Source: a virus. Taken from it: DNA of 51,056 nt. The first letter of the stretch is position 1, and each line of letters starts with the position of its first letter. The stretch covers positions 1 to 51,056 of IMG/VR virus record IMGVR_UViG_3300025898_000008. One strand, written 5' to 3'. Below the pieces are notes generated by a model, which was not told the DNA's origin, searched no databases, and saw nothing but the letters and a program-made list of their open reading frames with translations. The translations under genes and the position numbers were made by a program. Shown here piece after piece: positions 145 to 45,358 of this stretch.

Positions 145-422
145 TGTGGGCGGCATGGCGGGCACTCAAGGATCATGCAAGGGCGCGCGGCATTTCGTTC
201 CGGCTCTCGCTTTTCCATTTCAGAAAGTTCGCGCTCGTGACTGATTACCTGAATCGTACCGGCAACAACGGCCATTGCCTGACCGTGGATCGCATCGACA
301 ATCGCTTTGGCTATTACCCCAAAAACATTCAACCCCTCACCCGTGCAGAAAACGCCACGAAAAAAGCGCGGCAAGACGCAATCAGGATGAAGGCGGGTTA
401 CGCCTGGAAAGAAAACCAATGA
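27..422 (+). CDS. Small HNH-type endonuclease-like protein
   Basis: The product is 131 aa. The N-terminal part is very basic and has Cys and His residues (CCEPYC, then CFKH) that may bind zinc. The C-terminal part carries the core seen in short phage HNH proteins: LTVDRIDNRFGYYPKNIQ followed by LTRAEN. The start at 27 is chosen because in the circular genome it overlaps the stop of the upstream helicase loader by ATGA (seen at 50939..50942). An upstream in-frame ATG at 6 lies inside that loader gene. The stop overlaps the sliding-clamp start by ATGA. It sits between loader and clamp genes, so it is either a homing-type passenger or a processing nuclease. Family assignment is fairly safe; the role is inference. 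Confidence 0.75.
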   Translation: MKNGNDPTLCCEPYCRNRRRKDRRRCFKHDARRKRAANPMWAAWRALKDHARARGISFRLSLFHFRKFALVTDYLNRTGNNGHCLTVDRIDNRFGYYPKNIQPLTRAENATKKARQDAIRMKAGYAWKENQ

Positions 423-1474
423 AATTTACAACCGAAACAAAATTACTGGCCGAGGCTCTGAAAATAGCGGCAGTCGCAGCGATGGACGCGCGATCCATTC
501 CAATTTTAGGCAACGTGAAAATCGAGGTGAGCGACGATCAAATCGTTATCTCGACAACTAATCTCGACCTTTACGTTATCCAAAAAGTTCCGGCCAAAGT
601 ATCGGAGCCGGGCGCGGTCACTGCTTCGTTTTCAATTCTTTCGCAACTCATAAACCGACTCCAATCCAGCGAAACAAAAATCGAGTCGGGCGAGAACCAG
701 ATTGAAGTTGAATCGGGCGAAGTGCTGGCGAGTCTTGAAACGCTGGACGCTGACGACTTCCCTCTTCCGCTCAAAGTCGCCGCCGAAGGCGTGAAGTGCG
801 ATGCGGGCGATCTACTGAAACCGTTCACGGCTTTGATCCATGCCATTTCAACCGACACATCGAGCTATTATCTGATGGGAATTAACGTGGCTGGTAAAGA
901 GCTGGCCGCATCCGATAGGCGGCGCGTCGCGAGTTATCGCGGCGACGTGGAACTATCCAGTGACAGCGTTATTCTTTCCGATGTGTTCGTTCGTGCCGTT
1001 CTGAAAATCCAGCCGCAAGGGGAAATTCGATTCGTTATTACGGAAGGCAATGCGATCCTCGTTGGAGAGAACATCGAAATTCAATCGAAGCTCATTGAGG
1101 GCAATTATCCGAATTGGAAGCAAAACGTGCCGCAGAAAAACGGCAAGGCGTTCGCTTGCGACAAAAAAGCGCTAGTCGATGCCCTGCAAACCTGCTCGAT
1201 CTTCGCCGGTCGGCAGAATCAACCTGGATTAGTTTTGACCGGCAAAGGAAAAGAGATTGAAGTTGCCATGCCCGGTAAAGCTCGCGCGATGGTGCTTGGA
1301 AACGAATTGTGCGGCCAGCCGAAAGTCTCGGTCAGGATCAATGAACGATATTTGCTCGATGCGCTAAACGTAGTCGAAAAAGAGGATGTGCGAATCAACG
1401 TAATTGACGGGCATTCGCCAGTTCTGATTGAGGACGGCGCATTTCAGAGTGTGATAATGATAATGCGCCAATGA
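419..1474 (+). CDS. dnaN: DNA polymerase III beta subunit-like sliding clamp
   Basis: The 351-aa product is close to the usual DnaN length of about 366 and resembles bacterial DnaN along its whole length: an N-terminal block MKFTTETKLLAEALKIA, a middle domain with YYLMGINV and AASDRRRVASYRG (compare the ATDGHRLA motif of DnaN), GNYPNWKQNVP (compare the FPDYRRVIP region) and a C-terminal VIMIMRQ resembling VMPMR. DnaN dimers encircle DNA and tether polymerases. The start at 419 overlaps the HNH stop by ATGA; a longer frame extends to 275 but runs into the HNH gene. It is the last intact replication gene of the operon. No polymerase is encoded here, so it presumably serves or diverts a host polymerase. 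Confidence 0.9.
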   Translation: MKFTTETKLLAEALKIAAVAAMDARSIPILGNVKIEVSDDQIVISTTNLDLYVIQKVPAKVSEPGAVTASFSILSQLINRLQSSETKIESGENQIEVESGEVLASLETLDADDFPLPLKVAAEGVKCDAGDLLKPFTALIHAISTDTSSYYLMGINVAGKELAASDRRRVASYRGDVELSSDSVILSDVFVRAVLKIQPQGEIRFVITEGNAILVGENIEIQSKLIEGNYPNWKQNVPQKNGKAFACDKKALVDALQTCSIFAGRQNQPGLVLTGKGKEIEVAMPGKARAMVLGNELCGQPKVSVRINERYLLDALNVVEKEDVRINVIDGHSPVLIEDGAFQSVIMIMRQ

Positions 1475-1795: not shown

Positions 1796-2225
1796 ATGCG
1801 TGAGCTTCACCTTTTTGCAGGAGCAGGGGGAGGAATCCTCGGCGGCATCCTTCTCGGACATACCTGCGTATGTGCTGTCGAGATTGAACCTTACTGCCGC
1901 AACGTGCTACTCCAACGATCACGCCGAGTCAGATACGCGAGGACAGGAATCCGAATCTGGAAACGGTTCTCGGGCGGTTAATGCTGCCGACATTGGGGTT
2001 CAACGAGTTCAAAGGAAGCTCGTCAAAAAGGTTTTCAGGTTCACCCCATTTCCGTGGGGCGAAGATGTCAGAGGGATTGAGGACTTGCTCAAGCGATCCG
2101 ATATACCTGAACCCCTTATTCGCAGAATTGGTGATGATGTGGCCCGTGGGGTGGACCGACTTAAATCCATTGGCAGCGGACAAGTTCCGCGCGTGGTCGC
2201 AGTCGCATGGAAAACGTTAGCATGA
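1796..2225 (+). pseudogene. Degraded copy of the overlapping C5 methyltransferase locus
   Basis: Frame 1796..1981 begins MRELHLFAGAGGG (motif I of C5 cytosine methyltransferases) and continues to EIEPYCRNVLLQR before leaving homology and stopping. The motif X end, SIGSGQVPRVVAVAW, is found in another frame ending at 2225. The second, +1 gene known from the intact locus (44067) is also broken. Its start (GTG 1800, SFTFLQEQGEESS) is in the frame of 1800..2225. Its end (WPVGWTDLNPLAADKF then SHGKR) is in the frame ending at 2220. So both overlapping genes kept their ends, lost the middle, and the 3' part is shifted by one frame, while the +1 offset between the two genes stays the same at both ends. 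A strong ribosome binding site (GGAGGAAA) is retained. The 141-aa chimeric frame 1800..2225 could still be expressed. Confidence 0.85.
1801..1917. repeat. Direct repeat DR-L, 5' end of the methyltransferase locus
   Basis: Bases 1801..1899 match 44068..44166 with a single mismatch at 1807, and similarity continues with four further mismatches to 1917/44184. After that the two loci diverge strongly. In the circular genome the two copies are in the same orientation about 8.6 kb apart and bracket the whole replication and recombination module. The region is read in two frames in both copies, which restricts silent changes and may by itself explain part of the identity. Confidence 0.9.
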
Positions 2226-2641: not shown

Positions 2642-3484
2642 TTATTTTGCCGCGCGGAGCAGGCACAAGAGTTTCTCGGCTTGGATTTTGCGAGCCTGTT
2701 GGCGAGCATCAGCAGCAACAGCAGCATAAGCAACAACAGCAGCAGCATAAGCAACAACAGCAGCAGCAGCAGCAGCAGCATAAGCAGCAGCATAAGCAGC
2801 AGCATAAGCAGCAGCATCAGCAACAACAGCAGCAGCAGCAGCAGCAGCATAAGCAGCAGCATAAGCAGCAGCATAAGCAGCAGCATCAGCATCAGCAGCA
2901 TCAGCAGCAGCATCAGCAACAGCAGCAGCAGCAGCAGCAGCATAAGCAGCATCAGCAGCAGCATAAGCAACAGCAGCAGCATCAGCAGCATCAGCATCAG
3001 CATCAGCATCAGCAGCATCCTTCCATTCCTCGCGCGTTATCGTCTCCCCGCGAATCTTTCGTCGGTAAAGGTTGCCGACTTTTTGGATTGCCGTGCGCGA
3101 GCGATCCGTTTTCGCGAATCGAATCACGCCGTCTTTCGGGTCAACGAGCAGCCAAAGCAGAAACTTATCGGCGACTCGCGACAAATCCGCGCCGGGCTTG
3201 ATTGCTTGCAGGAAACGTTCGGGCCATAGAAGCGCCGAACCGTTATTCATGCCCTCAAAAATGCCATCTTCAATTCGGGCCAATTTTTGCGGTATTCCTA
3301 GTTCGGTTTCATACCTCGCGTGATTGGCCGAATGAACGGTGCATCCGACCGCACAGCCTTTGCCATTTTCCCAATAAACGCCGTGGATGATTTGATCGGC
3401 GAGCCGATGCGCTCGGACTCGCGAGAGATACTTGTCTTTGATTGCCTGCTTGCCGTGATAGGCCAGCATTGGTTTTGTTTTCAT
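2642..3484 (-). CDS. Ala/Tyr/Asp-repeat protein
   Basis: The product is 280 aa. Residues 1 to about 155 form a globular domain (MKTKPMLAYHGKQAIKDKY, GCAVGCTVHS, YETELGIPQKLARIEDGIF, WPERFLQAIKPGADLS) that I recall from phage and bacterial hypothetical proteins. Residues from about 157 to 255 are almost only Ala interrupted by Asp, Tyr and Val in short periods (DAADAAAYAAAYAA style), ending in a basic segment (RQQARKIQAEK). The repeat is encoded by a trinucleotide tract. A long Ala-rich helix is likely. Length variants are expected because such tracts slip in replication. It lies 26 bp upstream of the 2615 gene. The biochemical role is unknown. Confidence 0.8.
   Translation of the reverse strand: MKTKPMLAYHGKQAIKDKYLSRVRAHRLADQIIHGVYWENGKGCAVGCTVHSANHARYETELGIPQKLARIEDGIFEGMNNGSALLWPERFLQAIKPGADLSRVADKFLLWLLVDPKDGVIRFAKTDRSRTAIQKVGNLYRRKIRGETITREEWKDAADADADADAADAAAVAYAAADAAYAAAAAAAVADAAADAADADAAAYAAAYAAAYAAAAAAAVVADAAAYAAAYAAAYAAAAAAAVVAYAAAVVAYAAVAADARQQARKIQAEKLLCLLRAAK
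2704..3017. repeat. Trinucleotide microsatellite (CAG/CAT/AAG-type units)
   Basis: About 310 bp consist almost only of GCA-phase triplets such as CAGCAG, CAGCAT and CATAAG, with longer runs of pure CAG near 2760 and 2830. On the minus strand it encodes the Ala/Asp/Tyr repeat of the 280-aa protein. The plus-strand readings (poly-Gln/His, poly-Ser) are by-products. A larger period is visible: blocks with three AGCATAA units followed by a CAG run occur at about 2780..2830 and 2840..2890, suggesting internal segmental duplication. Confidence 0.95.
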
Positions 3485-43874: not shown

Positions 43875-44066
43875 ATGAATTTTCCCCTTTCTATGGAAGA
43901 TGCAAAGCGGGCGCTGGGGCAGATACCGGAGGCCATGAAGGAGAATTTAGGGAACCCAGAGCCGCAGGCTGAAAAGGAAGCAACAGGACAGATTGAGCTT
44001 TCCGAGACTTCAACCAATTTGCCCGAACCTCGCGACGGGCAAAACTTTTCCAAAGAGGGTGCGTGA
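43875..44066 (+). CDS. Small acidic hypothetical protein
   Basis: The 63-aa product, MNFPLSMEDAKRALGQIPE and onward, is acidic and polar. It starts directly after the previous stop, and its stop overlaps the GTG start of the methyltransferase (GTGA). It carries the ribosome binding site (GAGGG) for the two overlapping genes that follow. Confidence 0.55.
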   Translation: MNFPLSMEDAKRALGQIPEAMKENLGNPEPQAEKEATGQIELSETSTNLPEPRDGQNFSKEGA

Positions 44067-45358
44067 ATGAGCTACACCTTTTTGCAGGAGCAGGGGGAGG
44101 AATCCTCGGCGGCATCCTTCTCGGACATACCTGCGTATGTGCTGTCGAGATTGAACCTTACTGCCGAAAAGTCCTGCTCCAACGGCAGCGGGACGGCATC
44201 CTGCCAAAGTTCCCGATCTGGGACGATGTTCGAACCTTCGACGGGAAGCCGTGGCGAGGGCTCGTTGATGTTGTGTGCGGCGGCTTTCCGTGCACCGAAA
44301 TTTGCGTTGCCAACAATAGCCCAACGGGAACGACTGGAATCGACGGGAAATTTAGTGGATTATGGTCTGAGCAATTCAGACTGGTTTGCGAAATTCGACC
44401 ACGCTTCGTGTTCGTGGAGAACTCCCCAGCCCTTGTTATTCGAGGACTTGGGAGAGTCCTTAGTGATTTGGCCTCGGTCGGGTATGATGCACGATGGAGA
44501 ATGTTTCGAGCTTCCGAAATTGGCGCACCTATCGTTCGGGAGCGCATCTTCATTCTTGCGATCCCCAATGGCGAGCGATGGGTCAGCATGGAACAAAACC
44601 AACAAGCGGGATGTTCAGACTTCAATAGAGAAAACTTTAGACCGTGGAGGGACTTACAGGACAAGCTACAGATTCCAATGGGCCTCGCTTACGATCCTGC
44701 AATACGCGGAGTATTGCGAAACGATGATGGACTGGCCGTTGGCGTGGACAGAGTTAGGGCCATTGGCAACGGACAAGTTCCGGCAGTGGTTAAGCTCGCA
44801 TGGGAAACACTCATCGGAGGACAACGGGTGAAGCCACGAGAGAAAATGGAGACCGATGTTAAAAACGTGCTTCGCTACATCGCGGGGAAACATCCATCTG
44901 TCCCCGAGGAAACAAAGTCCGATAGCGCAGTTAGTGTTTCGTCAGAAAATCCCGCTTCGTCACTCCTTGAACAAGACGAACCCGAGGACCACGACGGCGA
45001 TTGCACCGACTCTAGCCGGGGTAGCGACCGGCCCGCTCAAACTCTTTCCGAACTATCCGAGGCATTACGCAACCCGCTCCCTCCGTCACCGCCAAAGGCA
45101 AAATGCTACAGCGCGCTGGAAGCTTTCAAATCGTACAAGCCGCTGACGGTCGAAATGGTTCGAGATATTCTCGCCAAAGAAAGAGCAGCCAGGGACGCGA
45201 TCCTGAAAGAATACTCCGAACGCACCGGGGAATCGGTTGATTACTGCGATGAGTGCGACATGGGCGTTGTCGAGGAAGAAGTTGAGGGGGCTTGGGGAAC
45301 AAGAGTTGAAACTCATCCATGCGGGGGCTGTGACGGGCTGGGTGTCGTAAAACTTTGA
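44063..45358 (+). CDS. dcm: C5-cytosine DNA methyltransferase with C-terminal zinc-finger extension
   Basis: The 431-aa product starts with GTG and has motif I FAGAGGG (7-13), motif IV GGFPC with catalytic Cys77, motif VI ENSP (119-122), motif VIII VRERIF (158-163) and motif X GNGQVP (235-240). The segment between VIII and X, where target recognition usually lies, is only about 70 residues. After about residue 255 follow a polar Ser/Glu/Asp-rich linker and CDEC (395-398) plus CGGC (420-423), like half of a DnaJ zinc finger. It probably protects phage DNA from host restriction. The first 770 bp also encode a second protein in the +1 frame. Confidence 0.9.
   Translation: MNELHLFAGAGGGILGGILLGHTCVCAVEIEPYCRKVLLQRQRDGILPKFPIWDDVRTFDGKPWRGLVDVVCGGFPCTEICVANNSPTGTTGIDGKFSGLWSEQFRLVCEIRPRFVFVENSPALVIRGLGRVLSDLASVGYDARWRMFRASEIGAPIVRERIFILAIPNGERWVSMEQNQQAGCSDFNRENFRPWRDLQDKLQIPMGLAYDPAIRGVLRNDDGLAVGVDRVRAIGNGQVPAVVKLAWETLIGGQRVKPREKMETDVKNVLRYIAGKHPSVPEETKSDSAVSVSSENPASSLLEQDEPEDHDGDCTDSSRGSDRPAQTLSELSEALRNPLPPSPPKAKCYSALEAFKSYKPLTVEMVRDILAKERAARDAILKEYSERTGESVDYCDECDMGVVEEEVEGAWGTRVETHPCGGCDGLGVVKL
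44067..44831 (+). CDS. Conserved-looking protein encoded entirely within the methyltransferase gene, +1 frame
   Basis: A 254-codon frame starts at ATG 44067, four bases after the methyltransferase GTG, and runs without a stop to 44831, just past motif X. The N-terminus is MSYTFLQEQGEESSAASFSD and the C-terminus has DWPLAWTELGPLATDKFRQW then SHGK. I recall phage proteins with these two ends as hypothetical or methyltransferase-annotated entries; not checked. The degraded locus near 1800 keeps both ends in the same +1 relation to the methyltransferase frame. Both genes share the GAGGG site. No function can be given; a partner of the enzyme or a C-terminal segment related to target-recognition regions of other phage methyltransferases is possible. 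Confidence 0.75.
   Translation: MSYTFLQEQGEESSAASFSDIPAYVLSRLNLTAEKSCSNGSGTASCQSSRSGTMFEPSTGSRGEGSLMLCAAAFRAPKFALPTIAQRERLESTGNLVDYGLSNSDWFAKFDHASCSWRTPQPLLFEDLGESLVIWPRSGMMHDGECFELPKLAHLSFGSASSFLRSPMASDGSAWNKTNKRDVQTSIEKTLDRGGTYRTSYRFQWASLTILQYAEYCETMMDWPLAWTELGPLATDKFRQWLSSHGKHSSEDNG
44068..44184. repeat. Direct repeat DR-R, 5' end of the methyltransferase locus
   Basis: Partner of 1801..1917, in the same orientation. Identity is 98 of 99 bases for the first part. Together they bracket the replication and recombination genes across the contig junction. Confidence 0.9.

Follow-up and report, generated by a model that had tools for sequence, protein, structure and literature searches.

The locus studied here raises the question of whether one stretch of phage DNA encodes two proteins over nearly the same nucleotides and, if so, what the second protein does. 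The window (the whole stretch of viral DNA analysed, 51,056 nucleotides, IMG/VR record IMGVR_UViG_3300025898_000008) contains a gene for a C5 cytosine methyltransferase, ORF A. A second open reading frame, ORF B, lies in its +1 frame. The ATG of ORF B is 4 nt after the GTG of ORF A, and ORF B ends just past motif X of A. An earlier note, made from the sequence alone, had described this frame of 254 codons, and its coordinates proved exact. The features of the locus and of a related remnant are as follows (TRD, target-recognition region).

44052..44062, plus strand: Shine-Dalgarno-like site AAAGAGGG, upstream of GTG 44063 and ATG 44067, read from the sequence
44063..45358, plus strand: ORF A, GTG start, C5 cytosine methyltransferase
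44063..44830, plus strand: catalytic part of ORF A, from PF00145, phrog_363, alignment A1 and motif positions
44072..44101, plus strand: motif I of ORF A, LHLFAGAGGG
within 44267..44302, plus strand: motif IV of ORF A, GGFPC
within 44396..44428, plus strand: motif VI of ORF A, VENS
within 44525..44560, plus strand: motif VIII of ORF A, RERIFIL
44744..44791, plus strand: motif X of ORF A, GNGQVP (GNGQVPAVV), conserved in alignment A1
44832..45358, plus strand: C-terminal extension of ORF A past motif X, outside the overlap, from the ORF list
44067..44831, plus strand: ORF B, +1 frame, ATG start, 254 aa and TGA, proposed recognition subunit (TRD and motif IX)
44382..44531, plus strand: core of ORF B, WFAKFDHASCSWRTPQ...WPRSGMMHDGECFELPKLAHL, overlapping motifs VI-VIII of A and matching phrog_1008 positions 59-155
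44532..44693, plus strand: variable TRD-like segment of ORF B between the core and motif IX, where the B wobble base changes fastest
44694..44789, plus strand: motif-IX-like end of ORF B, ILQYAEYCETMMDWPLAWTEL...DKFRQW, overlapping motif X of A, from the profile match and census
1796..2225, plus strand: remnant of another A/B pair, its TRD of a different type; an A N-terminus is followed, past an internal loss, by TRD and motif IX in the B frame (YLNPLFAELVMMWPVGWTDL) over an A-frame motif X

ORF A has the catalytic motifs of a C5 methyltransferase. PF00145 matches it at 1.5e-26, only over profile positions 3-173 of 324, which correspond to motifs I-VIII, and phrog_363 matches at 2.4e-53. The motifs that we took as the criterion for such an enzyme are present: I, IV (Pro-Cys), VI and VIII, with GFPC and EN invariant in the alignment of A proteins (A1), and also motif X. 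Motif IX is absent from frame 0 of ORF A and no TRD is recognisable there, the Pfam match ending at profile position 173. Between motifs VIII and X, alignment A1 contains only a poorly conserved linker. Beyond motif X, ORF A continues for about 175 aa without a stop and has a cysteine-rich end (YCDECDMGVV...HPCGGCDGLG). This extension is perhaps a fusion with a downstream gene. A 168-aa open frame (44158..44664, minus strand) lies antisense to the overlap. Elsewhere in the window, an ORF at 2642..3484 on the minus strand contains a long alanine-rich repetitive tract (AADAAAYAAAYAAAYAAAA...), and the region 275..1474 has, by eye only, the look of a sliding clamp (DNA polymerase III beta subunit).

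For the window gene alone, 20,000 synonymous shuffles of A gave a mean of 5.0 stops in the +1 frame, and a fully open frame had P = 0.0006; the +2 frame of the gene has 14 stops. Relatives were then fetched with the A protein only, in order to avoid bias (80 each from viral contigs and from the genomes of bacteria and archaea), and removal of near-duplicates left 145 distinct relatives of A. A +1 frame was called open when it had no stop between codon 2 and a point 20 codons short of the end of A, and the shuffles preserved both the A protein and its codon usage. The +1 frame is open in 139 of the 145 relatives, against 1.8 expected from the shuffles. The mean number of +1 stops per gene is 0.06 (4.34 when shuffled), and that of +2 stops is 14.3 (11.9 when shuffled). 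Methyltransferases of Streptococcus and Lactococcus phages were dropped as a negative control, since they themselves have a constrained +1 ORF, and host enzymes therefore served instead. Among 59 full-length ordinary C5 methyltransferases from bacterial genomes of two phyla, no depletion of +1 stops was found (12.34 versus 12.43 shuffled). The relatives are not independent; joint probabilities are therefore overstated, and none of the individual probabilities is to be read literally. The hidden ORF B is nonetheless real and under selection. The earlier note had argued that the open frame was not due to chance, which these counts bear out, and had named regular interruption of the +1 frame in homologous methyltransferases as the observation that would refute it. 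Such interruption is not seen.

The start codon of B is conserved as well. It lies exactly at A+4 in 153 loci (ATG in 142, GTG in 11), and in several loci with a differing A start region the ATG of B lies further upstream. The ATG arises from AAT followed by GAG in A. Where residue 2 of A is Asn, it is encoded by AAT in 131 of 132 cases, against 55.4 expected; elsewhere in the same genes, AAC is commoner than AAT (608 versus 409). The near-invariance of AAT at Asn2 is thus explained by preservation of the B start.

Selection acts on B as a protein. With the A protein held fixed, B-frame similarity between divergent pairs was 1.50 versus 0.38 for shuffled sequences (BLOSUM62 units per column); the third frame, a control for shared ancestry, gave 0.89 versus 0.27. 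In the B core (SSWKTHQCSLLEDL..TWPRWGMMRNG) the excess beyond what the A protein imposes was dB 1.7-1.8 versus dC 0.75-1.0, and the strongest B-frame excess was at the end of B, LNPxWVEWLMGWPIGW (dB 3.25). Divergence by codon position was calculated over 953 pairs with an alignment guided by nucleotides only. In motifs I-IV, divergence at A positions 1/2/3 was 0.144/0.077/0.365, the normal signature of A, and in the variable/TRD segment it was 0.394/0.250/0.260. Position 1 of A is the wobble base of B, and it is the fastest-changing position in the TRD segment across the relatives; B, not A, is therefore the constrained frame there. At motifs IX/X both frames are constrained. A B-guided alignment agrees that the constraint moves from frame A to frame B. 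An A-guided alignment of all pairs was set aside for this result and the nucleotide-guided one taken instead, because TRD segments hardly align and the A-guided alignment blurs the result. Extra constraint on synonymous sites of the methyltransferase frame, which the earlier note had predicted, is thus strong and specific to the B frame.

Searches of ORF B against Pfam and PDB sequences gave nothing significant. The window B protein matches phrog_1008 (2.1e-7) and also phrog_26627 and phrog_35493, and phrog_1008 matches 133 of 135 B proteins of the relatives. The same family matches the second ORF of the split pair of actinophage Wile (5.6e-95) and residues 258-447, the C-terminal half, of the fused McProf protein (9.9e-50). 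Mycobacterium prophage McProf gp6 and Gordonia phage Sanjuju gp4 are fused, single-ORF relatives with the order motifs I-VIII, LLPTPxxxD-like segments, motif-IX sequence and motif X; in McProf the motif-IX sequence between VIII and X is LNPRFAEWMMGWP. The A family profile aligns to motifs I-VIII of the fused relatives (E 5.8e-31). The B family profile aligns to motif IX of fused C5 methyltransferases (96.7%, E 4.6e-10; 95.0%, E 3.8e-8 with a larger set), and the profile match between nested B and the fused enzymes spans only 24 columns around this motif. An AlphaFold2 model of a fused relative (pLDDT 81) matches M.HhaI (Foldseek E 5e-15). The model of B alone has a pLDDT of 58, is confident only at the motif-IX end and in two short hairpins, and was left out of the fold search because of its low confidence. 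A poor model of the lone protein might be expected if B is a part that folds against a partner; it fits this idea and does not prove it.

A census with a motif-IX profile built from B placed the motif exclusively in the +1 frame in 154 of the 157 nested loci. One nested locus, L069, has it in frame 0 and is a frame fusion. In the actinophage set, motif IX is in frame 0 in 21 cases and in +1 in 5. In one locus, L146, A ends after motif VIII and B carries both IX and X. Motif IX is therefore complementary between the frames, present in B where A lacks it and in A when the two are fused. We conclude that ORF B very probably supplies the motif IX and the target-recognition part that ORF A lacks. 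The earlier suggestion that the second product has no known function thus needs refining; a PHROGs family that it matches is itself described as "DNA methyltransferase". The loci include natural rearrangements, with motif X moved into B in L146 and the frames joined at motif IX in L069. In L152 and L167, A is interrupted and B is intact, which could reflect sequencing errors. In L392 (E. coli PCP07014 prophage), an internal stop breaks A according to the annotation, and B is interrupted at nearly the same place.

We consider it likely that the locus encodes a split C5 methyltransferase similar to M.EcoHK31I, with A as its catalytic and B as its recognition subunit; expression and activity are inferred. 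Frame 0 would give the catalytic subunit, with AdoMet binding, the catalytic Cys and motifs I-VIII and X. Frame +1 would give a separate polypeptide from the ATG 4 nt past the GTG of A, its C-terminal half being the putative target-recognition region and motif IX. The two would be translated from adjacent starts behind the one Shine-Dalgarno-like site and, by inference from M.EcoHK31I, would assemble into one active enzyme. The assembled enzyme may methylate the phage DNA, probably, on our assumption, against host restriction. Phage methyltransferases of this sort usually serve to protect against host restriction. That B is open, under selection as a protein, conserved in its start and complementary to A in motif IX is observed; its translation, its assembly with A, methylation and protection are inferences for which there are no expression, binding or activity data.

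The small polypeptide of M.EcoHK31I is reportedly read from another frame inside the gene of the large one. The larger polypeptide contains motifs I-VIII and X and the smaller one motif IX, and the predicted TRD is in the larger subunit (PMC3404938). The pair described here is like M.EcoHK31I (and M.EaeI) in that A has motifs I-VIII and X without IX and B has IX. Two features set it apart: the constrained variable segment belongs to B and not to the large polypeptide, and B, which starts 4 nt past the start of A, covers nearly the whole of A. In M.AquI, the catalytic motifs are on one polypeptide and the distal variable region and later motifs are on another (PMC3404938). The actinophage pairs Wile 75/74, Familton 7/6 and RemusLoopin 34/35 and the locus L146 have a split of similar form, whereas in the window A retains motif X and the genes overlap almost completely. 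Monomeric enzymes of the M.HhaI type have the same catalytic motifs as A, and the fused relative shares the M.HhaI fold, but they carry all ten motifs in one chain, and the host enzymes tested have no hidden +1 ORF. The ShiLan element encodes an HNH endonuclease that lies hidden, out of frame, within a phage methylase (PMC11855218). Unlike B, this mobile insertion, with its homing endonuclease in the third frame, is not a part of the methylase.

B-like frames are also found beside complete methyltransferases. In Streptococcus and Lactococcus phages, enzymes with their own TRD and motifs IX and X contain a +1 ORF spanning codons 60-180, which is open in 51 of 51 genes (1.04 expected). It has sharp boundaries, with B-frame conservation up to the terminal SLSDILEENVPEKYFLS. 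In fused actinophage enzymes there are no +1 stops over columns 120-180, the B core, where about 14 are expected, and LPTPxxxD segments are often in +1. As side observations, the hidden constrained +1 ORF of loci of the Streptococcus/Lactococcus type (L233-L312) is about 140 aa long and matches phrog_16143; in the fused actinophage enzymes of L197-L232, L191 and L194 the B core is open and conserved in +1, and the LPTPxxxD repeats vary in number and lie in either frame; and Arthrobacter phage Linus gp81 has many such repeats.

The persistence of a constrained B core beside complete A, in both the Streptococcus/Lactococcus and the fused actinophage sets, means that B is not merely a supplier of motif IX, and it is mainly for this reason that we call the two-subunit enzyme no more than likely. 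It also keeps alive, as a minor possibility, the proposal that B is a separate protein with its own role (a regulator, a chaperone or a methyltransferase partner), whose core overlaps motifs VI-VIII and for which motif IX is secondary. Against this, A in the window's family has neither motif IX nor a TRD and the constraint on B is strongest at IX, motif IX alternates between the frames, and phrog_1008 takes in both B and the C-terminal halves of fused enzymes. Programmed frameshifting from A (motifs I-VIII) into the B frame (TRD and IX), giving a single polypeptide with B not translated alone, is judged unlikely from the layout and conservation of the frames, and we give it little weight. It would link I-VIII to TRD-IX in one chain, like the fused relatives, and the second ORF of the actinophage pairs does start near the end of the first. 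However, the start codon of B, 4 nt past that of A, is conserved in its own right. The B frame also stays open and conserved far ahead of motif VIII, which frameshifting would not require, and nested loci keep motif X in frame 0, so that it would be lost from the shifted product. That the open frame is a mere by-product of the protein sequence of A and of base composition, with no second product, is scarcely credible: much of the apparent B conservation in motifs I-IV does follow from A (the third base of A changes fastest), but chance and composition are ruled out as a general explanation by the synonymous shuffles (4.3 stops per gene versus 0.06 seen), by the +2 frame and by the undepleted ordinary C5 methyltransferases, and the constraint reverses to B in the TRD segment.

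Returning to the two-subunit enzyme, we suggest only tentatively, and with less than even confidence, that phage C5 methyltransferases as a group (hosts in the Firmicutes, Actinobacteria, Proteobacteria and Verrucomicrobia) carry an ancient +1 overlapping gene. This gene would encode a specificity partner in which the core is conserved and the recognition segments (LPTPxxxD-type repeats) can be exchanged. Even complete enzymes would have kept it, and there it might add or change specificity.

The degraded second copy in the window had been offered as support for B, on the grounds that it keeps N- and C-terminal pieces of the same protein. Both pieces are indeed present in the B frame, but the N-terminal one is weak evidence. 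The first 120 nt of the remnant are identical to the functional copy at 112 positions, so the match is trivial and was rejected as proof. The rest is of a different TRD type and is most like B of locus L008, with which it shares 50 of 77 residues in the B frame and 39 of 77 in the A frame. The proof of B rests on the survey of homologues, not on this copy.

The pair is as widespread as the earlier note had supposed. The phages or prophages that carry it come from Vibrio, Acinetobacter, Pseudomonas, E. coli and Burkholderia, and also from Akkermansia, Lactobacillus, Paenibacillus, Mycobacterium and others. In most of the database records examined, only one of the two frames is annotated. Only B is annotated, as hypothetical, in Vibrio phage 1.236 (L012) and Pseudomonas phage phPA-G (L393), where the methyltransferase frame is unannotated; only A is annotated in E. 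coli PT62 (L391). Both overlapping ORFs are labelled methylases in Likha (51/52), Familton (7/6) and Phanphagia (65/66), and in Wile (75/74) the second ORF is annotated as hypothetical. PHROG 1008, 16143, 26627 and 35493 contain B-like proteins; the first two are described as "DNA methyltransferase" and the other two are of unknown function, and all four entries are silent on the overlap with a catalytic gene. In the literature searched, which mostly did not cover subscription papers, only M.EcoHK31I and the unrelated ShiLan element were found, and a prior description of the nested phage pair elsewhere is not excluded. The nested A/B phage pair is widespread and, as far as these searches go, new; the two-polypeptide principle was already known from M.EcoHK31I.

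Annotation suffers at present, as some records keep one frame only and few label both. Cloning A alone to learn the methylation specificity of a phage would probably fail. The natural frame fusions and frame swaps show that split and single-chain enzymes interconvert. As an example of dual coding beyond the small viruses, a fully nested same-strand pair in double-stranded DNA phages, with clear selection on both frames and a likely function, would be unusually well supported, and it would make a single reported oddity, M.EcoHK31I, a common phage design.
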